In this document: positions 3,099-48,721 of the stretch, piece by piece | Position numbering within the stretch: position 1 is the first letter of the stretch | Layout: each line of letters opens with the position of its first letter | Origin: Pseudomonadota bacterium | GTDB lineage: Bacteria; Pseudomonadota; Gammaproteobacteria; Burkholderiales; Burkholderiaceae_C | DNA: 64,000 nucleotides | Assembly (NCBI GenBank): GCA_020161145.1 | Contig: JAIUPQ010000004.1 | Coordinates: 1 to 64,000 of the forward strand | Reading direction: 5' to 3' | Notes under the pieces: model-generated | The model's input: the letters and a program-made list of their open reading frames with translations, nothing else | Told to the model about the DNA's origin: nothing | Databases searched by the model: none | Made by a program: the position numbers and the translations under genes

Positions 3099-4070
3099 TC
3101 ACCCCCCCACCACCCGGTAATACCCCAGCCGCCTCGCCCAATCCTTCCACCGCTGGCCGGCCTCGTACTCAGCCCGCGTCAGCGGCTCGAACGGCTGCGG
3201 CGGCAAGTGGGTGGCGATGCGGGTGGGCGCGGGCAGTGCGCCGCTGGCCACCAGGCCGGGTACCCACCATTTGGCGGCGCCGCCGCCGTGGAAGCATTTG
3301 ATCTGCGCCCAGCGCTCGCGGTGCAACTGGCGCTCGCCGGAGGCGCCCAGCTTGCGCGCCAGTCGGCCGCCGTGGGTGTTGCGCCAGCAGTGCCAGTGTT
3401 CGGGCGGCAGGTAGCCGCCGCCTTCGCGCTGGGCCAGTGCGGCCCAGATGATGGCCTCGATGTGCATGGCGCGCGGCAGGGCGGTCCCGCCCAGGCGGGC
3501 GATGAGGTCATCGAGCCAGGCCAGGTCCCAGTTGTGGCGGGCCTGGGCGACGCCAATGTCCACGTGGTGGGCCAGGGCCACGCCCTGGTCGTAGGCGCGG
3601 CGCACCACCTCGGGCGGCAGCAGGCAACTGGGCGGCTGCCACATCAGCAGCACGCCGCGCGCGGGCGTGGGGTCGAAGGTGAAGGCGTTGGGGAAGTAGA
3701 GGTCGGGGTCGAGGATGAGCATTTCCTCGCCCGGCGCGGCCAGCAGCAGTGGGTCGGTCAGCTTGCGCCAGCAGGGGTGGCCGAAGCGGAAGGCGCGCAG
3801 GTGCGGCCAGTCGGCCCAGGCGGTCTCGGCGATGGCGTCCAGCTCGGCCTGGGCGTGCACGCTGACCTGGTGGCGGGCGGGCACGTCGATCTCGGCCACG
3901 GCGGCGGCGATGGCGGCGCGGTCGGCCTCGGCGTCGGTGATCAGGTGCAGGTCCAGCGCGTCTTCACAGCGGGCCAGCAGCGAGGCGATGGCCAGGCGGG
4001 CGTAGGGCAGGCTGCCGGCGCCCAGCACGCAGTAGGCGCGGCGGCGAGTGGGTGGGGTGGGGTCGGACAT
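3099..4070 (-). CDS. glycosyltransferase-like protein
   Basis: The 323-aa cytosolic protein begins with an SLPYARLAIASLLAR nucleotide-sugar-binding-like strand and helix. In mid-protein it carries LILDPDLYFPN, a DxD metal/nucleotide-sugar motif of GT-A transferases. It has no membrane segment. The overall layout resembles GT8-like or uncharacterised GT-A enzymes; the acceptor is unknown. It lies 30 bp downstream of rep on the same strand, so probably shares its transcript. The gene ends in a seven-base G run immediately before TGA, so slippage there would change only the last residues. Confidence 0.6.
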   Translation of the reverse strand: MSDPTPPTRRRAYCVLGAGSLPYARLAIASLLARCEDALDLHLITDAEADRAAIAAAVAEIDVPARHQVSVHAQAELDAIAETAWADWPHLRAFRFGHPCWRKLTDPLLLAAPGEEMLILDPDLYFPNAFTFDPTPARGVLLMWQPPSCLLPPEVVRRAYDQGVALAHHVDIGVAQARHNWDLAWLDDLIARLGGTALPRAMHIEAIIWAALAQREGGGYLPPEHWHCWRNTHGGRLARKLGASGERQLHRERWAQIKCFHGGGAAKWWVPGLVASGALPAPTRIATHLPPQPFEPLTRAEYEAGQRWKDWARRLGYYRVVGG

Positions 4071-4100
4071 GGCGCGGGCAGTATAGGCAGCGCCCCGGTG

Positions 4101-6104
<2,004 letters not shown>

Positions 6105-6225
6105 GGGCGAGCGTGAAAAAAGCGGCGGATCGTAGCGCAGGCCGTCCCCACAAGGGCGAAGGTGGCTTTGTAAAATCAACGGTTCGGGCGGCATTGTCCG
6201 GCCCACCAACTGAAGGGAGAACGTG
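6105..6225. promoter_or_regulatory. divergent intergenic region between rep and the EPS operon
   Basis: The 121-bp gap must hold promoters for both directions. On the plus strand TAAAAT at 6171-6176 is a possible -10 for the EPS operon; no good -35 precedes it. A purine-rich AAGGGAGA at 6213-6220 is the ribosome-binding site that selects the ATG at 6226 over the overlapping GTG at 6223. No riboswitch-like structure was recognised. Confidence 0.35.
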
Positions 6226-7071
6226 ATGCGTACGGGATCGATGGCGACGGGTCTTTTGGCGCTGGCCTTGGTGGCGCCTGCCTTGGCGGCGCCCCAGCAG
6301 GGCACACCGGCGGCGGCGCAGCGCGCCGTGGCCACACCGCAGAGCCAGCAATACCGCATTGGTGCCGGCGACACGCTGCGCATCACCGTCTACCAAAGCC
6401 CCGACCTCAGCCTGGAGACCAAGGTCACCGATGCGGGCGTCATCAGCTACCCACTCCTGGGCAGCCTGCGCGTGGCGGGCCTGTCGGTAGACGAGGCCGA
6501 GAAGGCGCTGGCGCAGGCCTTGGTCAAGGGGGACTTCATCAAGAATCCCCAGGTCATCATCGTGGTGACCAATGTGCGCGCCAACCAGGTCAACGTGCTG
6601 GGCCAGGTGGGCAAGCCGGGCCGCTACCCGCTGGACATCGCCGGCATGCGGCTGACCGAGGTGCTGGCGCTGGCCGGTGGGGTGACCGCCGTGGGCTCCG
6701 ACACCCTGGTGCTGGTGGGTCAGCGCGAGGGCAAGGCCTGGCGCCACGAGGTGGACTTGCCGCGCCTGTTTGCTGCGGGTGGCCTGGCCGAGGACGTGGT
6801 GGTGTTGCCCGGCGACGCGCTGTGGGTGGAGCGGGCGCCGCAAATCTATGTGTATGGCGAGGTGCAGCGCCCCGGTCAGGTGCGGCTGGAGCGGGGCATG
6901 ACGGTGATGCAGGCGCTGGCCGCGGCCGGGGGCAAGACCCAGCGCGGCACCGAGCGCGGCCTGCGCGTCAGCCGGCGCGGCCCCGATGGCCATCTGCAGG
7001 CCCTGGAGCCCGCCATGGACGAGCAACTGCGCGAAGGCGACGTGGTCTACATCCGTGAGAGTCTGTTCTGA
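6226..7071 (+). CDS. epsE: polysaccharide export outer-membrane protein (EpsE/Wza type)
   Basis: The 281-aa protein has an N-terminal signal peptide ending near ALAAPQ. A polysaccharide-export (Poly_export) domain follows, opening YRIGAGDTLRITVYQSPDLS, and then two SLBB repeats recognisable at VNVLGQVGKPGRYPL and IYVYGEVQRPGQVRL. It belongs to the EpsE family of Methylobacillus-type EPS clusters, which form the outer-membrane channel for Wzy-dependent export. There is no lipobox cysteine at the signal cleavage site, unlike classical Wza. Its stop overlaps the start of epsF (TGATG), so the two are coupled. Confidence 0.88.
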   Translation: MRTGSMATGLLALALVAPALAAPQQGTPAAAQRAVATPQSQQYRIGAGDTLRITVYQSPDLSLETKVTDAGVISYPLLGSLRVAGLSVDEAEKALAQALVKGDFIKNPQVIIVVTNVRANQVNVLGQVGKPGRYPLDIAGMRLTEVLALAGGVTAVGSDTLVLVGQREGKAWRHEVDLPRLFAAGGLAEDVVVLPGDALWVERAPQIYVYGEVQRPGQVRLERGMTVMQALAAAGGKTQRGTERGLRVSRRGPDGHLQALEPAMDEQLREGDVVYIRESLF

Positions 7072-8462
7072 TGAACCTGGGACATTGGTTGGCCGTGCTG
7101 CGCGCCCGCTGGGTGGTGGTGGCGGTGGTGTTCGTGCTGGTGACGGCGGCGGCCACCGTGGTGGCCTTGCGCCAACCCAAGCAGTACGCCGCCACGGCGG
7201 TGCTGCTGTTCGAGGCGCGCCCCGATCCGGTCAGCACCATGCTGTACGGCGGCGGGCCTTCGATGGCCCAGATCAACACCCAGCTGGAGGTGATGCGCAG
7301 CGACCGCGTGGCCCAGCGGGTGGCCGAGCAGCTCAAGCTGGCCGACGACCCCGAGGTGCAAGCGCGCTGGCGGTCCGCCACGTCGGAGCGCCAGCCTTTT
7401 GAGGGCTGGGTGGTGGAGTTTTTGCGCAAAGGGCTGTCGGTGGCCGTGCAACCGGGCAGCAGCGTGGTCAACGTCACCTACACCGGCGGCACGGGCGAGC
7501 AGGCGGCGGCGGTGGCCAATGCGTTCGTGCAGGCGTATTTGCAGGCGGCGGTCGATCTGCGGGTGGAGCCGGCCAAACAGTACAACGCGTTTTTCAGCCA
7601 GCAGGTCAAGGAAAGCCGCGATGCGCTGGAGAGTGCCCAATCCGCCTTGGCCAAGTTCCAGCGCGACCACGGCATCCTGATTGCCGAGGGCAAAGACCTG
7701 GACGAAGTGCGGCTGGACCAGTTGACCGAGGAGGCGGTGACGCTGCCGTCGGGCGGCGGTGGCCGCTTGGCGGACGGGCAAGGCAGCGCAGCGGTGACGG
7801 CGGCGCGGGCCGAGCTCTCGCGCGCCGAGGCCAAGGCGGCCGAGTTGTCGCGCCGCTTTGGCGAGAACCACCCCCAGGTGCAGGATGGGCGGGCGGCCGT
7901 GGTCGAGGCGCGCAATCAGCTGGCGGCCGAGACGGCGCGGGCCCGGGGTCAGGCGACGGCGCGCGCGCAGGCCAGCGCGGGTCGGGCCGCCCAGGTCAAT
8001 GCGGCCATCGAACAGCAGCGCGAGAAGCTGCTCAAGCTCAAGGAAGTGCGTGACCAGGCCACCGTGCTGGTGCGCGATGTGGACAGCGCACAAAAAGCCT
8101 ATGACGCCGTGCTGGCGCGCTACAACCAGACCAGTCTGGAGAGCCAGAACCGCCAGAGCAACGCCACCATCATCAGCGAGGCCTCGCCGCCGGCCTGGCC
8201 CAGCTCGCCGCGCCGGATCACCACGCTGCTGATCGGCATGCTGGGGGCGCTGATGGCGGGTGTGGTGGCTGCGCTGGGGTGGGAGCAGCTCGACCGGCGC
8301 GTGCGCACGGTGGGTGACCTGTCGGCCACCATGGGCTTGCCGGTGATTGGCATCATGCCGTCGCCCATTGCCGGACGCAGCGACCAGCGCTGGCTGGCGG
8401 TCAAACAAAAATGGATGATTTCCGGGCGTCAGTTGCCCGCTCCGGCCAACGACGCCAACTGA
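7071..8462 (+). CDS. epsF: EPS chain-length determinant protein (Wzz domain, EpsF type)
   Basis: This 463-aa inner-membrane protein has a transmembrane helix at about 15-35, a large periplasmic region with a long coiled-coil stretch around residues 180-345, and a second transmembrane helix near 385-405. A proline-rich PPAWPSSP segment sits just before the second helix, the usual signature of Wzz/polysaccharide co-polymerases. The cytoplasmic tail is short and has no kinase domain; the kinase is the separate downstream gene, as in EpsF/EpsG pairs. It sets chain length and links polymerase to the outer-membrane exporter. Confidence 0.88.
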   Translation: MNLGHWLAVLRARWVVVAVVFVLVTAAATVVALRQPKQYAATAVLLFEARPDPVSTMLYGGGPSMAQINTQLEVMRSDRVAQRVAEQLKLADDPEVQARWRSATSERQPFEGWVVEFLRKGLSVAVQPGSSVVNVTYTGGTGEQAAAVANAFVQAYLQAAVDLRVEPAKQYNAFFSQQVKESRDALESAQSALAKFQRDHGILIAEGKDLDEVRLDQLTEEAVTLPSGGGGRLADGQGSAAVTAARAELSRAEAKAAELSRRFGENHPQVQDGRAAVVEARNQLAAETARARGQATARAQASAGRAAQVNAAIEQQREKLLKLKEVRDQATVLVRDVDSAQKAYDAVLARYNQTSLESQNRQSNATIISEASPPAWPSSPRRITTLLIGMLGALMAGVVAALGWEQLDRRVRTVGDLSATMGLPVIGIMPSPIAGRSDQRWLAVKQKWMISGRQLPAPANDAN

Positions 8463-8469
8463 TGCCCTC

Positions 8470-9402
8470 ATGACTCTTCCGCCAGATCACTCCTCCCAAG
8501 ACCCCGACGACGCCCACCACGACCCGCTGCTCGGCGCGCTGGACCTGAGCGCGGAGCTGCCGCCGACCATTGGCGAGCTGATCGGCCAGGCGCGCGATCT
8601 GGACGCCGACACCCTGGAGCGCATTGCCCGTTACCAGCGCGAGCATGGGGTCAAGTTCGGCGAAGCCGCCATCGCCATGGGCCTGGCCCGCGAGGAAGAT
8701 GTGCTGCATGCGCTGTCGCGGCAGTTCGGCTATGCCTATGCCCATGCCGAAGACGAGGTGCGCGGCCTCAGCCCCGAGCTGGTGATGCTGCAGCAGCCCT
8801 TTGGTCATCAGGCCGAGGCCTTCCGCGCCACCCGCAGCCAGATCCTGCTGCGCGGCGGCGAGGGCGAGCAGACGGCGCGCAAGCGCCCGCTGGCCATCGT
8901 CAGCCCCGGCACGGGCGACGGCAAAACCTTCTTCTGCGCCAACCTGAGCGTGGCGCTGGCCCAGTTGGGCGGGCGGGTGCTGGTCATCGATGCCGACCTG
9001 CGCGGTGCGCGCATGCACCAGATCTTCAATCTCGACAACCGGGTGGGCCTGTCCAACGTGTTGTCGGGTCGCCAGGCCATGGGCGCGGTCAAGGCCGTGC
9101 GGGGCGTGCCCAACCTCTATGTGCTGCCGGTGGGCATCCAGCCGCCCAACCCGCTGGAGCTGGTGGCCGGCCAGGCCTTCGGGCGGCTGCTGCGCGAGGT
9201 GGCCACCCGCTTTGACCACGTGGTGGTGGATACCCCGGCCACCATGTTCGGCAGCGATGGCGTGGTCATTGCGGCGCGCTGCGGCTCGGCCCTCATCGTC
9301 ACGCGCCGTGACGTGGGCAAGGTGGCGGCGGCGCGGGAACTGGTGGGCGCCCTGCAGACGGGGCGTGTTCTTGTGGCCGGCGTGGTGATGAACGAGTTCT
9401 GA
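8470..9402 (+). CDS. epsG: EPS tyrosine-kinase-like ATPase (EpsG type) with MshEN-like N-terminus
   Basis: A 310-aa cytosolic protein. Residues 140-310 form a BY-kinase/MinD-type ATPase with Walker A SPGTGDGKT (145-153) and Walker A' VLVIDADLRGAR (170-181). The C-terminus ends GVVMNEF and has no tyrosine cluster, so classical autophosphorylation at a Tyr tail is not supported. Residues 33-56 and 62-85 look like two 24-residue MshEN motifs separated by exactly five residues: IGE at 34-36, L49 and Q56; then KFGE at 62-65, G71, L82 and Q85. In MshE ATPases this fold binds c-di-GMP. The start at 8470 is 7 bp after epsF. Confidence 0.87.
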   Translation: MTLPPDHSSQDPDDAHHDPLLGALDLSAELPPTIGELIGQARDLDADTLERIARYQREHGVKFGEAAIAMGLAREEDVLHALSRQFGYAYAHAEDEVRGLSPELVMLQQPFGHQAEAFRATRSQILLRGGEGEQTARKRPLAIVSPGTGDGKTFFCANLSVALAQLGGRVLVIDADLRGARMHQIFNLDNRVGLSNVLSGRQAMGAVKAVRGVPNLYVLPVGIQPPNPLELVAGQAFGRLLREVATRFDHVVVDTPATMFGSDGVVIAARCGSALIVTRRDVGKVAAARELVGALQTGRVLVAGVVMNEF

Positions 9403-9638
9403 CGCCAGGGCGTGGTATCCATCACGCAAACAGGCGGGGAAAGATACTTCAGCTTACCTCCGGTCTCACCTTTTACGGGCATGCAGCGTGTCGAGCCTTG
9501 ATGGCAGCATTTCCGAAGTCGAAAAAGTGGGCGCGGCAGCCTGAGGCTGTCGTCGGCGGCGGCACCGTTTTGTCGCCTACGACGCTACGAAACGCCCCCA
9601 GGGCGACTCGCCCAGACACCCGAATCGGAACCCTTCAC
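9403..9638. other. 236-bp intergenic region upstream of the secreted hydrolase gene
   Basis: No ORF with family-like sequence was seen here; the open frame upstream of 9639 reads as random sequence. The region contains a CGCCCCCAGGGCG-type GC-rich inverted repeat near 9590. It was inspected for a GEMM cyclic-di-GMP riboswitch because of the EPS context, but the conserved core was not found. It probably carries the promoter of the next gene, which has its own terminator. Confidence 0.3.
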
Positions 9639-11444
9639 ATGACCACCTTGCGCTCCTCACGCACAGCGTTTGCCCTGAGCGGCCTGCTGGCGGCCGTCGC
9701 CGCCCAGGCCACCACCACCGGCAGCGGTGCGGCCCTCAACGTCTCGGCCTACGAGTACTACAGCTCCACCAAGCCCACCGTCGATCTGATGAAAAAAAGC
9801 TCGGAGTGGCTGACCCAATGCAACCCCTATGAGCCCGGCAATTGTTCGGGCTTTTCCAACGGTGCTGGCAATTGGGACACGCTGGAGCAGGCCAAGCTCG
9901 ATCTGGACGAGAACGGCTGGGTCAAGAGCCTGCCGGCGGCCAATGCCAAAGATGTCAAGTACCGCTACGTCACCACCCTGGTGGTGCCTGCGGGGGCGCC
10001 GGCGGGCAAGTACATCGTGCGCTACGACGGCGAGGGCACGCTGGCCTATGGGGGTGCCGGCAGCAAGCTCGCGGCCGAGTCCCGAGCCGGCCGCGATGTG
10101 GTGGAGATTCCGGCCAACAGTGGCAGCCCCACCTGGGTCAGCGTGATGAGCACCAAGGCGGGCAACCACTTGCGCAATGTCCGTATGTTCGAGCCCGGCG
10201 GCGTGTGTGGCACCGACTGGATCGTCCCTGTGGCCGACGCCAGCGCCTGCACCGGCAAGGGGGCCTTCCTGCCCTACGAGAACTTCCCGGCCAGCCAGAT
10301 CTTCCATCCCAAGTTCCTGGCTGACCTGCTGGGGTTTCGCACGGTCCGCTTCCTCGACTGGCTGGGGCCCATGACCAACCCGTCGGTCAAGTGGGCCGAC
10401 CGCACGCGCTACTACCACCGCACCTGGGCCGGCTCGCCCACAGGCACGCCTTACCGCGCCATCTTCCAGTTGATGCGCCAGGTCCGTGCCAACCCCTGGA
10501 TCACGCTGCCACCTTATCTGGACGATGAATACGCCCGGCGGTTTGGCCAGTTTGCCGCCAAGCAGCTGAGCCCGGATGCCACGCTCTACCTCGAGTACGC
10601 CAACGAGCCCTGGAACTTTGCCTTCCAGACCAGCCACTGGATGATGGATCAGGCGCTCAAGCTGTGGACGCCCTCGCCGGGCACCGATGCCTACATGCTG
10701 CAGGCCAACTGGTATGCCAAGCGCAGCGCCGAGGTGTGCCAGATCGTCAAGGCCGAGTTCGGCGCCGCCGCCAACCGCGTCAAGTGCGTGCAGAACGCCC
10801 AGGCCGCCAACAGCTGGATGACCGACTACACCTTGCAATGCCCGGTGGCGGCCAAGACGCTGGGCACCAGCTGCGACAAGCGCTTCGACGTGGTGGCCAT
10901 CGCCCCCTATTTCGGCGACTACATCAACGACCCCGCCTACCGCGCGACCATCACCTCCTGGTACCGCGAGCCCGATGGCGGCGTGGGCAAGCTGTTCCAG
11001 GAGCTGACGGGCACCGACGATGCCGGCAAGGCCGTCACGCCGCCGCTGTTCGGCAAAGGCACCGAGGCACCCAAAGGCGCGCTGGCGCGCTCGGCGGGCT
11101 GGATGGCCGAAAGCAGCAAGGTGGCTGCGGCACGGGGTTTGTCGCTGGTGGCCTATGAGGGTGGCCAGCATCTGGTCGGCGGCGGCGATGCCGCCTACGG
11201 CGAGCTGATCAGCAAGGCCAACCGCGACCCGCGCATGGGCAAGGCCTATCAGCGCATGATGAACGATTGGCAGGCTGCGGGCGGCCAGACCTTTGCCTAC
11301 TACTCCTACGTGGGGGCCGCCAGCCGGTATGGCGCCTGGGGCCTCAAGGCCACGCAGGAAGACGACAAATCGGTCAAATGGCAGACCGTGCTGCCGGTGC
11401 GCGATGGCCGCTGCTGGTGGAGGGATTGCGCGGTCCAGCCCTGA
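9639..11444 (+). CDS. secreted clan GH-A-like glycoside hydrolase in the EPS locus
   Basis: This 601-aa protein starts at the ATG at 9639, giving an immediate Sec signal peptide cleaved near AAQA (residue 24). The N-terminal ~190 residues look like a beta-rich ancillary domain. From about 215 a TIM-barrel-like catalytic region contains YLEYANEPWN with acid/base candidate E323 and VAYEGGQ with nucleophile candidate E507, the two glutamates expected of clan GH-A enzymes. No exact GH family was recognised. The location suggests trimming, release or turnover of the polysaccharide made by the flanking genes. It is bounded by its own intergenic region and terminator. Confidence 0.65.
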   Translation: MTTLRSSRTAFALSGLLAAVAAQATTTGSGAALNVSAYEYYSSTKPTVDLMKKSSEWLTQCNPYEPGNCSGFSNGAGNWDTLEQAKLDLDENGWVKSLPAANAKDVKYRYVTTLVVPAGAPAGKYIVRYDGEGTLAYGGAGSKLAAESRAGRDVVEIPANSGSPTWVSVMSTKAGNHLRNVRMFEPGGVCGTDWIVPVADASACTGKGAFLPYENFPASQIFHPKFLADLLGFRTVRFLDWLGPMTNPSVKWADRTRYYHRTWAGSPTGTPYRAIFQLMRQVRANPWITLPPYLDDEYARRFGQFAAKQLSPDATLYLEYANEPWNFAFQTSHWMMDQALKLWTPSPGTDAYMLQANWYAKRSAEVCQIVKAEFGAAANRVKCVQNAQAANSWMTDYTLQCPVAAKTLGTSCDKRFDVVAIAPYFGDYINDPAYRATITSWYREPDGGVGKLFQELTGTDDAGKAVTPPLFGKGTEAPKGALARSAGWMAESSKVAAARGLSLVAYEGGQHLVGGGDAAYGELISKANRDPRMGKAYQRMMNDWQAAGGQTFAYYSYVGAASRYGAWGLKATQEDDKSVKWQTVLPVRDGRCWWRDCAVQP

Positions 11445-21182: not shown

Positions 21183-22573
21183 TGCTGAGCGAACAGCGGC
21201 ACCTGCGCCAACGCTTTTTGGCCGCACCGCCGTCGGTGGCGTCGGCGGTGGCGGCGGTGCTGGAGCCGTTGGTGGCTGCCCTGTGCCTGGTGGTGCTGCT
21301 GCTGCTGCACCACCGACCGCTGGATGCGCCGCCAGTGACCTTGCTGGTGTTGACGCTGGTGTTGATGTTTCCCGGCATCAACCGCTTCGGTCGCACCGGC
21401 GTCGGCGTCTTTCTCGACATCATGCTGTCGTGGTTCGGCGTGGTGGCCGTGCTGCTGCTGGCGGGCTACGTCACACGCAGCATCGACCTCTTCCCCGTGG
21501 ACCTGCTGTATGCCTGGGTGGTCATCACGCCGGTGCTGCAATGGGCCTTCGTGGCTTTGGGCACGCGCATCATGCGCTCACGCCAGGCCCAGCAGCACGC
21601 TCCGGTGGTCATCGTGGGCGCCGGGCCGCAAGGGGTGCGCATGGCGCAGGTGCTGGCCGATCGGCCCGATCTGGGGCGCCGGCTGGCGGGCATCTTCGAT
21701 GACCGCTCCGCCAGCCGCTTCAACCTGCCGGCGGGTCTGGTGCTGGCCGGCAACCTGTCGCAGTTGCCGGAGTTCATTGAGCGCCACGGCGTCAAAGACG
21801 TCTACATCACCCTGCCGCTGCTCAAGCAGGAGCGCATCCAGCGGCTGATGGCAGCGCTGCAGAACACCACGGCCTCGCTGCACCTGGTGCCGGACGTGTT
21901 CGGGTTGAACATCATCCAGGGCCGGCTCGAAGACCTGGGCGGCCTGCCCATCGTGGGCCTGACGCTGACGCCGTTCACTGGCCTCAACGGCATGCTCAAA
22001 CGGGGCAGCGACGTGGTGCTGGCGGGGTTCATCCTGCTGTTGATCGCGCCGCTGCTGGCGGTGGTCGCCATTGGCGTGCGCCTCTCATCGCCCGGGCCCA
22101 TCATCTTTCGTCAGCGGCGCACGGGATTGGATGGCGAGATCATCGAGGTCTACAAGTTCCGTTCGATGACGGTGCAGGAGAACGGGCCCGAAGTGCGCCA
22201 GGCCACCCGGGACGATCCCCGCGTCACGCGCTTCGGCGCCTTCATCCGCCGCACCTCCATCGACGAGTTGCCGCAGTTCATCAACGTCTTGCAGGGGCGC
22301 ATGAGCATCGTCGGGCCGCGGCCGCACGCCGTGGCCCACAACCTGGCCTATCGCGAGTACGTGGCCGCCTACATGGCCCGCCACAAGGTCAAGCCCGGCA
22401 TCACCGGCTGGGCCCAGGTCAACGGCTGCCGGGGCGAGATCTCTGCGGTCGAGGACATCAGCCGCCGCGTCGAATACGATCTGGAATACCTGCGCAACTG
22501 GTCGTTGGCGCTGGACTTCCTGATCATTGCGCGCACCGTCCGGCTGGTGTTCAAAGACCAGCGCGCCTATTGA
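21182..22573 (+). CDS. undecaprenyl-phosphate glucose phosphotransferase (WcaJ/EpsB type)
   Basis: This 463-aa polyprenyl-phosphate hexose-1-phosphate transferase has four N-terminal transmembrane helices, a CoA-binding-like Rossmann region (VVIVGAGPQGVRMAQVL), another hydrophobic helix at about 280-300, and the catalytic bacterial sugar transferase domain: RQRRTGLDG, VYKFRSM, RRTSIDELPQF and IVGPRPHAV, ending with KPGITGWAQVNG. It starts repeat-unit synthesis by attaching a hexose-1-phosphate, usually glucose, to undecaprenyl phosphate at the cytoplasmic face. Confidence 0.9.
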   Translation: MLSEQRHLRQRFLAAPPSVASAVAAVLEPLVAALCLVVLLLLHHRPLDAPPVTLLVLTLVLMFPGINRFGRTGVGVFLDIMLSWFGVVAVLLLAGYVTRSIDLFPVDLLYAWVVITPVLQWAFVALGTRIMRSRQAQQHAPVVIVGAGPQGVRMAQVLADRPDLGRRLAGIFDDRSASRFNLPAGLVLAGNLSQLPEFIERHGVKDVYITLPLLKQERIQRLMAALQNTTASLHLVPDVFGLNIIQGRLEDLGGLPIVGLTLTPFTGLNGMLKRGSDVVLAGFILLLIAPLLAVVAIGVRLSSPGPIIFRQRRTGLDGEIIEVYKFRSMTVQENGPEVRQATRDDPRVTRFGAFIRRTSIDELPQFINVLQGRMSIVGPRPHAVAHNLAYREYVAAYMARHKVKPGITGWAQVNGCRGEISAVEDISRRVEYDLEYLRNWSLALDFLIIARTVRLVFKDQRAY

Positions 22574-22592
22574 CACCCCGAGGGAGAGACCC

Positions 22593-23867
22593 GTGATCAA
22601 GCATTCCACCGCGTTCGTTCTGGCTGGCCTGCTGACGGCGACCTTGAGCGCACAGGCCGTCGAGCAACAGGCGGCGATCGTCGACAAGGCCGAAGAGGCG
22701 ACGCCGGCCTGGGTGCTGGGCGTGACACAGGACTTTCTGCACAGCAGCAACGTGGCCAAGACGCCCGATGGGACGGAGGTCGCCGACTGGATTTCGACCA
22801 CCGGGCTGGAAGGGCGGCTGACGCTGCCCTTCGGGCTGCAGACTCTGCATGGCCTGGCCCGGGTGTCGGCGCTGCGCCATCGCGAGCGCGACTCGCTGGA
22901 CGCCAACCCCTATCGCCTGGCGGCCACTCTGGACTGGTCGGCCGGCCGCGACAGTGGCCTGCGGGGCAACCTGGGCGCCGAGGTCGAGCGCAAGCTCTAC
23001 ATCTATGACCAGACCGGCGCCCTCGCGGCCATGGAGCGCAACTCGCAAGTCTTTGCCCGGGCGCAGTACGGCCTGACGCCCGATTGGGCGTTGATCGGTG
23101 GTTTGAATCTGCAGCGGCGCGACCTGTCGCTGGACGAATTGGTGGCGCTGGATCAGCGCCAGTCGGCCGTCGAGGCGGGCGTGCGCAACCAGCCCAGCCC
23201 GGATCTGGACTGGCGCCTCAACCTGCGCTACACCGACGGCCGCTATCCCGAGCGCCTGCTAGGCCAGGCCGATGACTACCGCCGCAGCGACCTGGAGGGG
23301 GGCGTCAACTGGAGCTGGACGTCCACGCTCAACCTCAACGCCGTGCTGGGCTGGGGCCGTGAGCGCCACAGCCTGCAAGGGGTGGACGACATCAGCCTGT
23401 GGTACGGCTCGGCCACCTTGAATTGGCAGCCGACGGCCAAGCTGAAGTGGCAGGTGAAGCTGGAGCGCAACAGCGACACGGGCATGCGCACCTCGGCCGG
23501 GCTGGGCGGTGGTGATCCCAGCCTGCCCGTGCCGACGCCCGACGCCCTGAGCAATGCCAGTGTGGCCACGGGTCTGGCGGTGGGCGCGTCGTGGGCGGCG
23601 ACCGCCAAGGTCAGTTTGGATGGCCGCGTCAGCACCGTGCGGCGCAACCTCAGCGCCACCTTGAACGGCACGCCGACCGATGGCAGCGACCGGGTCAACA
23701 GCATGGCTCTGGGCGTGCGCTACACGCCGCAGCCTTCGCTTGAACTGGGTTGCAGGGTGCTGCGCGAGCGGCGCCGCATTGGTGGTGCCGACAGCGCCAA
23801 CCTGACCTTTCCCTATGAGGACACCAGTTGGGGGTGCTGGGGCAAATTCTGGTTCGGCACGGTGTGA
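22593..23867 (+). CDS. epsL: EpsL-type outer-membrane beta-barrel protein of the EPS locus
   Basis: The start is GTG at 22593, preceded by AGGGAGAG. The 424-aa product has a signal peptide ending at SAQA and then regular amphipathic strands with alternating aromatic and polar residues to a terminal KFWFGTV, the hallmark of an outer-membrane barrel. It fits the EpsL family (exopolysaccharide biosynthesis operon protein), whose exact role is not established. The last nine bases lie inside the left terminal repeat of a MITE-like element, so the C-terminal residues and stop may be contributed by the insertion. Confidence 0.75.
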   Translation: MIKHSTAFVLAGLLTATLSAQAVEQQAAIVDKAEEATPAWVLGVTQDFLHSSNVAKTPDGTEVADWISTTGLEGRLTLPFGLQTLHGLARVSALRHRERDSLDANPYRLAATLDWSAGRDSGLRGNLGAEVERKLYIYDQTGALAAMERNSQVFARAQYGLTPDWALIGGLNLQRRDLSLDELVALDQRQSAVEAGVRNQPSPDLDWRLNLRYTDGRYPERLLGQADDYRRSDLEGGVNWSWTSTLNLNAVLGWGRERHSLQGVDDISLWYGSATLNWQPTAKLKWQVKLERNSDTGMRTSAGLGGGDPSLPVPTPDALSNASVATGLAVGASWAATAKVSLDGRVSTVRRNLSATLNGTPTDGSDRVNSMALGVRYTPQPSLELGCRVLRERRRIGGADSANLTFPYEDTSWGCWGKFWFGTV

Positions 23868-38544: not shown

Positions 38545-39600
38545 CTACAGGCTCGGGCTGGTTTGCAGGGCGACCATCCGCTGCGGCGCCATCACCACCT
38601 GGTTGCGGCCTTGCGCCTTGGCGCGGTAGAGCGCGCTGTCGGCGTCGGCCAGCCAATCGGCCACGCTGGCGTGGGTGGGGCGCAATTCGCTGCCGCCGAC
38701 GCTGATGGAGACCCGCAACTGCGGCAGCTCGCGCACCCGCAGCGCGGCCACATGCTGGCGGATGCGCTCGGCAATGGCGGCGGCGTCATGGGCATTGGCG
38801 TCGCGCAGCAGCACGGCCAGTTCGTCGCCACCATAGCGGCCGGCAGCGTCCTGGATGCGCAGGCTGCGCCGAACGGCCATGGCCACGGCGCGGATGACTT
38901 CGTCACCCACCAGATGGCCGTGCCGGTCGTTGATCGATTTGAAGTGGTCGATGTCCACCATCAGGGCCGTCGCCGCCGCGCCCTCTTGCAGCGCGGCATC
39001 GGCCAGCTCCAGCCAGTGCGCGCGGCTGGCCAGGGCGGTGTGGGCGTCCAGCCGGTGCAGCTCCTGCAACTCACGGTTCTGGCTTGCCGCCAGGCGCAGC
39101 TGATGGCGGTTGGACAGGCTGACCGCCAGCGTGTGCACCACGAACAGCGGCAGTGTGGACGCGACGATCAGCGTGGACACCTCCCACAGCGGCTCGGGGC
39201 GCAGCCACGCGGTGGTGGCCAGCATGGGCACGACCAGCCACGGCAGTGAGTCCAGGATCAAGCCCCGCCGGCCGATGCTGAACTTGTCAGACAGGTTGAT
39301 GGTGACCATGATGACGCTGGTCAGCGGGTTGAAGTGCACCAGCGGCACGAGGACGCCCACGAGGGCCGTGTCCACCATCACGTTGCGCATCTCGGCCTGC
39401 GCGCGGTCACTGCTGGTGAGGGCATGCACCAGCGCCACGTGCGGCCAGACCAGGCAGGCGGTACCCATCAGCAACCAATGCAGCAGCGGTGCCTGGGTGA
39501 TGTGGAGCACGCCGCCCACCGCCAGCGCGGTCAGGCCGAACCCGAGCACGCGCAGCGGGTAGAGCCGGCGGTACAGGTTGTGCTTGCTGAAGGCGGCCAT
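38545..39600 (-). CDS. MASE2-GGDEF diguanylate cyclase
   Basis: The 351-aa protein has a MASE2-like membrane sensor with about five helices in residues 12-165, opening RRLYPLRVLGFGL. A GGDEF domain follows with signature GGDEL (257-261), differing from consensus only in the last Phe to Leu, and VDIDHFKSINDRHGH. The inhibitory I-site R248-I-Q-D251 is five residues upstream. It should synthesise c-di-GMP with product feedback control. The usual D-x-LTGL-x-NR start of the domain is degenerate here (DAHTALASR). It is 10 bp downstream of pilU. Confidence 0.85.
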   Translation of the reverse strand: MAAFSKHNLYRRLYPLRVLGFGLTALAVGGVLHITQAPLLHWLLMGTACLVWPHVALVHALTSSDRAQAEMRNVMVDTALVGVLVPLVHFNPLTSVIMVTINLSDKFSIGRRGLILDSLPWLVVPMLATTAWLRPEPLWEVSTLIVASTLPLFVVHTLAVSLSNRHQLRLAASQNRELQELHRLDAHTALASRAHWLELADAALQEGAAATALMVDIDHFKSINDRHGHLVGDEVIRAVAMAVRRSLRIQDAAGRYGGDELAVLLRDANAHDAAAIAERIRQHVAALRVRELPQLRVSISVGGSELRPTHASVADWLADADSALYRAKAQGRNQVVMAPQRMVALQTSPSL

Positions 39601-47744: not shown

Positions 47745-48721
47745 ACTCACTCGATCTCTCTCCTGTGGCCCAGCTGGCGGCCCTGGCAGCCAAGAAGCCT
47801 TGCGTCCTGGTCGTCGATGACCAGCCCGTCAACATTCAGGCCCTGCATGCCGTCTTCGTCGGCGACTACCGGGTGCTGATGGCCACCAGTGGCGAGCAGG
47901 CCTTGAAGCTGGCCCACGAGCGCCAACCCGACCTGATCCTGCTGGACGTGGCCATGCCGGGCATGGACGGCCATACCGTGTGCCAGCAGCTCAAGATCGA
48001 CGCCGCCACGGCCGCCATCCCCATCATCTTCGTCACCGCCCAGACGGGCGCCGAGGAAGAGGAGGAAGGCCTGTCGCTGGGCGCGGTGGACTTCATCACC
48101 AAGCCGTTCAACCCGACCGTCGTGCGCGCTCGCGTGCGCACCCACATCACGCTCAAGCACCAGTCCGATCTGCTGCGGCAGATGGCCTTCGTCGATGGCC
48201 TCACCGGCCTGGCCAACCGGCGCGCATTCGACGAGCGCCTGACCATGGAAACCGCCCGTGCCCGTCGCAGCGGCGAGGCGCTGGCCGTGGCCATGATCGA
48301 CGTCGATCACTTCAAGCTCTACAACGACCACTACGGCCACCAGCAAGGTGACGGCTGCCTGGTCAGCGTGGCGCGGGCCGTGCGTCATGCGCTGTTGCGG
48401 CCCGCCGATCTGGCGGCGCGCTGGGGCGGCGAAGAGTTCGCCTGCATACTGCCCGGTACCGACGAAGCGGGGGCCCAGTTGATGGGCGAGCGCCTGCGCG
48501 ACGCGGTGCAGAGGCTGGCGATCGCGCACGAAACCTCGCCCGTGGCGTCCAGCGTCACCGTCAGCATTGGCATCGCCGTCATCCCGCCGCGCCGGCCCAA
48601 CGCCACCTTCTCGGGTGCGCCGCCGGTGGTCGAGCCCAGCCGGCTGATCGCCCAGGCCGATCGCCTGCTCTACCACGCCAAGCAAGAGGGCCGCAATCGC
48701 GTCAGCGTGGGGCCGCTGTAG
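47741..48721 (+). CDS. response regulator diguanylate cyclase (REC-GGDEF)
   Basis: The 326-aa protein has a receiver domain with acidic pair D26-D27, phospho-acceptor D69, switch T99 and K121. The GGDEF domain (about 145-320) has the active-site signature GGEEF (229-233), the complete opening DGLTGLANRRAF and I-site R220-P-A-D223. It is therefore expected to make c-di-GMP, with PleD/WspR-like activation by phosphorylation. The coupling by ATGA overlap to the hybrid kinase makes that kinase the likely phosphate donor via its Hpt domain. Confidence 0.92.
   Translation: MNSLDLSPVAQLAALAAKKPCVLVVDDQPVNIQALHAVFVGDYRVLMATSGEQALKLAHERQPDLILLDVAMPGMDGHTVCQQLKIDAATAAIPIIFVTAQTGAEEEEEGLSLGAVDFITKPFNPTVVRARVRTHITLKHQSDLLRQMAFVDGLTGLANRRAFDERLTMETARARRSGEALAVAMIDVDHFKLYNDHYGHQQGDGCLVSVARAVRHALLRPADLAARWGGEEFACILPGTDEAGAQLMGERLRDAVQRLAIAHETSPVASSVTVSIGIAVIPPRRPNATFSGAPPVVEPSRLIAQADRLLYHAKQEGRNRVSVGPL

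Follow-up and report, generated by a model that had tools for sequence, protein, structure and literature searches.

MshE binds c-di-GMP mainly through the N subdomain of its MshEN domain, as reported in PMC5013675. The same paper from 2016 mentions an MshEN domain in a Methylobacillus exopolysaccharide-synthesis protein, which is very likely EpsG, and the assignment of this domain is therefore not new. MshE of Vibrio cholerae (5HTL) and EpsG have in common two 24-residue motifs, a spacer of five residues, both Gly-3 and both Gln-24. In contrast to MshE, EpsG has the N subdomain only, fused to a BY-kinase fold and not to a pilus or T2SS ATPase, and it mostly has Ser (Thr in the copy described here) in place of Arg-1 of motif I, and Phe at position 2 of motif II. 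The best sequence match, Thermus PilF, also differs from EpsG: it is a pilus ATPase in which three GSPII domains stand in tandem, and every one of them includes a C subdomain. The methanolan-type EpsG proteins (TIGR03029) belong to the same family and have the same EpsE-EpsF-EpsG gene order, and their family model starts at the MshEN motif; the copy described here, however, is under the equivalog cut-off of that model and keeps a Walker A lysine that has been lost in many relatives.

The BY-kinases CapB and Wzc share with the present EpsG the ATPase fold, the Walker A lysine, Walker A' and the Walker B aspartate, but EpsG does not have their C-terminal tyrosine cluster. EcpK of Myxococcus xanthus is a tyrosine pseudokinase which reportedly acts on the co-polymerase EpsV by binding and not by phosphorylation, and phosphorylation-free cycles of binding and release have been proposed for this pair (PMC12004946, 2025). 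The signal that drives these cycles is not named in the model as given there, and the terms 'MshEN' and 'c-di-GMP' do not occur in the main text of that paper. EcpK resembles EpsG in being a stand-alone BY-kinase fold without a tyrosine tail, partnered by a co-polymerase without a kinase domain; it has no consensus Walker motifs, whereas EpsG has the sensor and the present copy keeps the Walker A lysine (PMC12004946). Direct control by c-di-GMP is established for synthase-type polysaccharides, through PilZ in BcsA (PMC12220298). In the open-licence literature we found no report of such control of the Wzx/Wzy co-polymerase step, and none of c-di-GMP binding by EpsG or by a BY-kinase with MshEN; the relevant part of PMC5816809 cites MshEN and a kinase, but only separately. 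What appears to be new is the way in which EpsG is conserved, with the sensor retained, no tyrosine tail and a decayed Walker A, and the connection of this pattern with the pseudokinase model.

The window, i.e. the whole stretch of 64,000 nucleotides analysed, contains epsG as the last ORF of the series EpsE-EpsF-EpsG within a gene cluster for exopolysaccharide (Table 1), together with glycosyltransferases, a Wzx-like flippase, a Wzy-like protein, a WcaJ-type priming transferase and an EpsL-like protein. The EpsG protein matched TIGR03029 with 235.8 bits (E 5e-70, profile positions 4-273 on residues 33-308), which is below the equivalog cut-off of 313.8; the best score within our 80-member alignment had an E of 2.3e-123. 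EpsE and EpsF adjoin epsG, the former scoring above its own cut-off and the latter below. The EpsF-like protein has Wzz and GNVR domains only, without a kinase domain. An EpsF-like frame lay immediately upstream of epsG by a distance rule in 71 of the 80 loci examined (the best 80 of 479 relatives), and the remaining nine of these best 80 of 479 also contain one, overlooked by the rule. An EpsE-like frame was found within 5 kb in 59/80 (best 80 of 479), some loci ending at contig ends. Near epsEFG, two long frames on the + strand, 9498-11444 (648 aa) and 3207-6116 (969 aa), had no Pfam or NCBIfam match at E ≤ 0.001. The literature on Herbaspirillum epsG was set aside, as epsG is there said to be a glucosyltransferase (PMC4195743).

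Table 1. Features of epsG and its neighbourhood, in window positions
Feature	Position	Strand	Basis or remark
EpsE polysaccharide export protein	6223..7071	+	TIGR03028, 312.6 bits, above cut-off 262.65
EpsF-like polysaccharide co-polymerase, presumed EpsG partner	7071..8462	+	TIGR03017, 344 bits (cut-off 422.75)
EpsG-like protein, 310 aa: MshEN_N domain and BY-kinase-fold ATPase domain	8470..9402	+	TIGR03029
MshEN motif I, residues 33-56, TIGELIGQARDLDADTLERIARYQ: G35, Q56 kept; T33, R42, A53 deviate	8566..8637	+	
Five-residue spacer, residues 57-61	8638..8652	+	53-residue span in 110/110 rows
MshEN motif II, residues 62-85, KFGEAAIAMGLAREEDVLHALSRQ: K62, F63, G64, V78, L82, Q85	8653..8724	+	
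ATPase domain with BY-kinase fold, about residues 111-310; no Tyr cluster at the C-terminus	8800..9399	+	Foldseek
Walker A, residues 145-153, SPGTGDGKT, Lys152 present	8902..8928	+	
Walker A', residues 170-178, VLVIDADLR	8977..9003	+	
Walker B, residues 251-257, VVVDTPA, Asp254	9220..9240	+	
EpsL-like protein, same eps cluster	22527..23867	+	TIGR03014, 165.7 bits (cut-off 275)

The MshEN_N domain of EpsG comprises residues 33-85 (window 8566-8724). The sequence-only reading that preceded this work had proposed two 24-residue repeats with a five-residue spacer, and these were confirmed, with Gly-3 and Gln-24 in both repeats and Leu at position 17 of the first and position 21 of the second. The deviations that it had listed, T and K at position 1 and R at position 10 of the first repeat, are present as well, and to these are added Ala for Leu-21 in motif I and Phe at position 2 of motif II. 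In a profile search, which had been suggested as a check, positions 2-53 of the 53 in NF053729 (c-di-GMP_motif, MshE-related) aligned with residues 34-85 at an E of 2.1e-6, but at 27.4 bits in the protein search and 31 bits in the genome search the match did not reach the curated cut-off of 38 bits. When the first 96 residues were compared with PDB by phmmer, Thermus PilF was the top match (E 5.2e-4), and the third match was the unrelated Ner (E 0.98). A profile was built from 48 EpsG N-domains (47 from the best 80 of 479 relatives, plus the window copy). Its PDB matches at E ≤ 1 were 11 distinct sequences, exclusively of MshE, PilB or PilF, with 1.1e-13 for PilF and 8.1e-10 for c-di-GMP-bound MshE (5HTL), the latter ungapped over 60 residues. 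In the alignment of 80 members (79 from the best 80 of 479 relatives, plus the window copy) NF053729 matched every member at E ≤ 0.01, the best at 1.6e-14. Pfam PF05157 had no match in the window protein (E ≤ 10) or in any of these 80 members (E ≤ 0.01). On contig C2 of this genome an NF053729 match (322223-322381) is followed closely, on its C-terminal side, by a match to PF05157 (C2:321965-322219), and we infer that the current PF05157 model covers mostly the C subdomain, which has no counterpart in EpsG; the absent match is therefore weak evidence against MshEN_N.

Full-length EpsG was predicted by AlphaFold with a pLDDT of 90.5 (above 90 for residues 31-90) and a pTM of 0.85. The N-domain alone gave a mean pLDDT of 87.9 and the same four helices as the full model, at residues 34-42, 46-59, 63-69 and 75-86. 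A PilF GSPII domain ranked first for this part in Foldseek, with TM values of 0.64-0.73 to PilF and MshE domains (0.72-0.73 to c-di-GMP-bound PilF GSPII-B, 0.69 to 5HTL). The structural check thus returned the four helices of MshEN, but the best Foldseek E was 0.27, none being ≤ 0.001, and many fumarase chains scored in the same range. Because of this the modelled fold would not by itself carry the assignment. By sequence profile residues 33-85 are an MshEN_N domain, and the predicted four-helix shape agrees, so that the MshEN-type N-terminus first suspected from the letters alone stands.

Conservation was studied in relatives from two sources, the 80-locus set and further genomes, using frames with at least 135 bits to the window protein. 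Two patterns of the ATPase domain, one of them spanning Walker A, were used to find 479 relatives, and the best 80 of these make up the 80-locus set. After removal of identical frames and of a non-EpsG frame on the reverse strand (L110), 110 aligned rows were counted: 78 from the 80-locus set, 31 from further genomes and the window copy itself. One row (L083) stops at a contig end and a few have extended C-termini. In a phylum-wide sample TIGR03029 matched 49 of 398 genomes at E ≤ 1e-40; among the matches listed from that sample eight start at profile position 1-4, and the rest are mostly Wzc-type frames.

Residues 33-85 span exactly 53 residues without a gap in 110/110 rows. The contact residues are kept in nearly all of them (G35, G64 and Q85 in 109/110 each, Q56 in 105/110), and both Gly-3 and both Gln-24 occur together in 104/110, i.e. 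in the window copy, in 76/78 rows of the 80-locus set and in 27/31 rows of further genomes. Loss of the ligand-contact positions across homologues had been named beforehand, together with an absence of binding, as a result that would speak against the proposal, and Gly-3 and Gln-24 were found to be kept. The 12 contact positions of MshE (taken from PMC5013675) were better conserved than sets of 12 drawn at random from the domain (permutation p 1.3e-4), with a mean KL of 3.1 compared to 2.1 for core positions. Position 1 of motif I, mostly Ser in the family, is Arg or Lys in 8/110 rows only. As controls, 30 PF05157 loci of the same order were taken from a longer list and placed by ungapped projection on the EpsG profile, in which some are misplaced; all four residues were kept in 7/30 of these and in 7/14 of those with at least 15 bits. 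Nine control rows begin with G-L-A-R-x-L-V and are presumably PilB-like, and none of the nine keeps all four. EpsG thus resembles the MshE-like controls and not the drifted ones.

These comparisons bear on the main rival explanation, in which the MshEN_N fold does not bind a nucleotide but serves as a module for docking to EpsF or for oligomerisation of EpsG. XpsE provides a precedent for a fold retained after binding was lost (PMC5013675), motif I of the window copy has no Arg-1, Gly-10 or Leu-21, and the part covered by PF05157 is absent in all 80 aligned members; yet Gly-3 and Gln-24, which drift in the PilB-like controls, have been kept in EpsG, and these are ligand contacts in MshE; in the EpsG rows the contacts exceed the core in conservation. 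We consider a purely docking role possible but rather doubtful.

The window copy deviates more than many of its relatives. Residue 32 is Pro, compared to Arg in 69/110 rows, and there is no Lys or Arg within residues 28-33, where 91/110 rows have at least one. Its contact score, counted over R1, L2, G3, L17, L21 and Q24 of both motifs, is 7/12 by strict and 10/12 by lenient scoring, with both Gly and both Gln kept; across the 110 rows lenient scores were 12 in four, 11 in 65, 10 in 32 and lower in nine. Identity to the three nearest relatives is 64-70 % in the domain and 61-68 % in the ATPase part, and to four more distant relatives 43-55 % and 52-62 %, respectively. By its residues this copy is at the weaker, more degenerate end of the family. 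Thermus PilF GSPII-B, which binds c-di-GMP at 6 nM with Lys and Leu at position 1 (PMC11731258), is a precedent for T33 and K62 as high-affinity binding without Arg, and by analogy the deviations at position 1 may be tolerable. The reported cost of Ile for Leu at positions 17/21 is small, a 2.4-fold reduction of binding (PMC12002112). Binding was lost, however, when motif II of a PilF GSPII-A construct had Ser-1 together with Ala-3 (PMC12002112), and Leu or Ile in place of the middle Gly lowered binding by MshE (PMC5013675). In our judgement it is likely that the EpsG family binds c-di-GMP, and for the window copy the chances of binding are about even. Ser, Thr, Asp or Asn at residue 33 is combined with Asp, Glu or Gln at residue 36 in 41/110 rows; one idea is that Ser/Thr-33 serves as a helix cap, keeping helix 1 short and the site open.

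The C-terminal two thirds of EpsG are similar in fold to CapAB (4jmp, Foldseek E 1.5e-17) and Wzc (3la6, E 1.5e-16). The BY-kinase patterns given in PMC12220298 are GX5GKS/T for Walker A, DXDXR for Walker A' and DX2P for Walker B. DADLR of the window copy fits Walker A', and Walker A keeps GKT with Ser145 replacing the first Gly; Walker B reads DTPA, the final Pro of the pattern being missing. E116, R119 and R122 are conserved in EpsG as in CapB/Wzc; we take them to be the ring-assembly residues of BY-kinases. The loss of Walker motifs that marks an EcpK-type pseudokinase was not found in the window copy, in which Lys152, DADLR and Asp254 are present.

The tyrosines of the window protein are residues 55, 88, 90 and 217 only. 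A C-terminal tyrosine cluster, defined as at least two Tyr among the final 25 residues, occurred in 0/110 EpsG rows, and four or more Tyr were found in this region in 22/25 Wzc-type controls. Of the 110 rows, 61 have Lys at position 152, 37 have Arg, 11 another residue and one a gap. The Walker A lysine is thus missing in 48 of the 109 rows without a gap, a proportion which is not a population frequency, as the 80-locus set is the best 80 of 479 relatives and one of the two patterns used for sampling spans Walker A. All four sensor residues are retained in 44 of these 48. On a quick tree of 108 rows, excluding L030 and L021, the Lys152 state changes at least six times, four of the changes being forced by starred branches. 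Gly occurs at residue 42 in 40/48 rows without Lys152 compared to 3/61 rows with it; this association was rejected as independent evidence, as it tracks large clades of the tree. The lysine is absent in L019, L033, L035, L113, L125, L128 and other loci, and EpsG-like proteins of Methyloversatilis, Dechloromonas, Herbaspirillum and others have Arg or another residue in its place under a family model named tyrosine kinase.

The 'tyrosine kinase' label of the sequence-only reading is not borne out by these counts. Its further suggestion, that the second messenger gates phosphorylation by the chain-length kinase, is unlikely as a general mechanism, because the tyrosine tail is absent and the Walker A lysine is so often lost. 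An active kinase with c-di-GMP-gated autophosphorylation on a tyrosine outside the C-terminus, e.g. Tyr88 or Tyr90 beside the sensor, would agree with the Lys152, DxDxR and Asp254 of the window copy and with its TIGR01007 score of 114 bits, above the cut-off of 108.05 and the only such match in the genome (two others fall below), as well as with Tyr at position 88 in 103/110 and at position 90 in 83/110 rows. Such an enzyme is, however, difficult to combine with the missing tyrosine cluster, with the rows that lost Lys152 and kept the sensor, or with the repeated changes at position 152. A low-molecular-weight tyrosine phosphatase was not found in the window either; the two genome matches are on contigs C8 and C2. 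We regard an active kinase as improbable.

The mechanism that we favour, at slightly better than an even chance, is that EpsG, a stand-alone protein of BY-kinase fold, carries an MshEN_N sensor and serves EpsF as its partner, and that c-di-GMP sets the engagement of EpsG with EpsF. In an EPS machine of the Wzx/Wzy type EpsG would attend the co-polymerase from the cytoplasm, its four-helix sensor being fused to an ATPase without a tyrosine tail. The ligand would most likely bind between motifs I and II, and its occupancy would alter the seating of EpsG on EpsF, i.e. the assembly or release of an EpsF/EpsG ring. Polymerisation and export would then be governed by the second messenger, either in place of tyrosine phosphorylation or in addition to it; high c-di-GMP may either assemble or dissolve the complex. 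Relatives without a tyrosine tail largely keep the binding-site residues, so that EpsG may be switched by c-di-GMP and not by phosphorylation. More tentatively, and with some doubt on our part, c-di-GMP might have replaced tyrosine phosphorylation as the co-polymerase switch, the kinase having lost its phosphorylated tail and in many lineages also the lysine that binds ATP, the sensor having stayed under selection and ligand binding and release driving the EpsF/EpsG cycle. MshEN_N on EpsG would be a candidate for the driving signal of such cycles in Betaproteobacteria such as Rubrivivax, Leptothrix and Ideonella. If this is true, EpsG is a c-di-GMP-gated BY (pseudo)kinase, and Wzx/Wzy EPS export is under direct, allosteric control by c-di-GMP.

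Two likely diguanylate cyclases had been noted in the window, and GGDEF genes were indeed found at 38599-39051 (-) and 48185-48700 (+), 29 and 39 kb from epsG. The genome of 3.51 Mb has 31 GGDEF matches (two in one frame), i.e. about 30 genes, from which about 0.55 matches per 64 kb are expected. Two in one window are within chance, and local c-di-GMP synthesis was rejected as support; the pair is uninformative. A GG[DE]EF frame occurred in 0/80 eps loci (1.50 Mb, best 80 of 479 relatives), the flanks of which are mostly eps genes, with a strict pattern that recovers only one of the two window GGDEF genes. Since there are 31 GGDEF matches, the genome can, judging by its gene content, make c-di-GMP. 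This also concerns the reading that the site binds a different ligand, e.g. 3',3'-cGAMP or another cyclic dinucleotide. MshE binds cGAMP weakly (PMC5013675), and Phe-2 of motif II and Ser/Thr-1 of motif I alter both guanine pockets, but Gly-3, which makes the guanine-selecting backbone contact in MshE, is kept in 109/110 rows for each motif, and with about 30 GGDEF genes in the genome we consider another ligand very improbable.

Some further observations concern the domain and its paralogues. The F-x-Y-x-Y stretch after motif II (residues 86-90, window 8725-8739; Phe86 in 103/110 rows) ranks with the best-conserved segments of EpsG and is possibly a hinge or contact site. L030 (G007:C1:741331-742098), an EpsG paralogue a few kb from copy L016 of the same genome, no longer has Gly-3 in either motif or Gln-24 in the first. 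The present genome has a second MshEN-bearing protein, L001 (G000:C2:320723-323881), by sequence a GspE/PilB-type ATPase, in which about 200 residues precede the motif and NF053729 scores 50.8 bits, above its cut-off.
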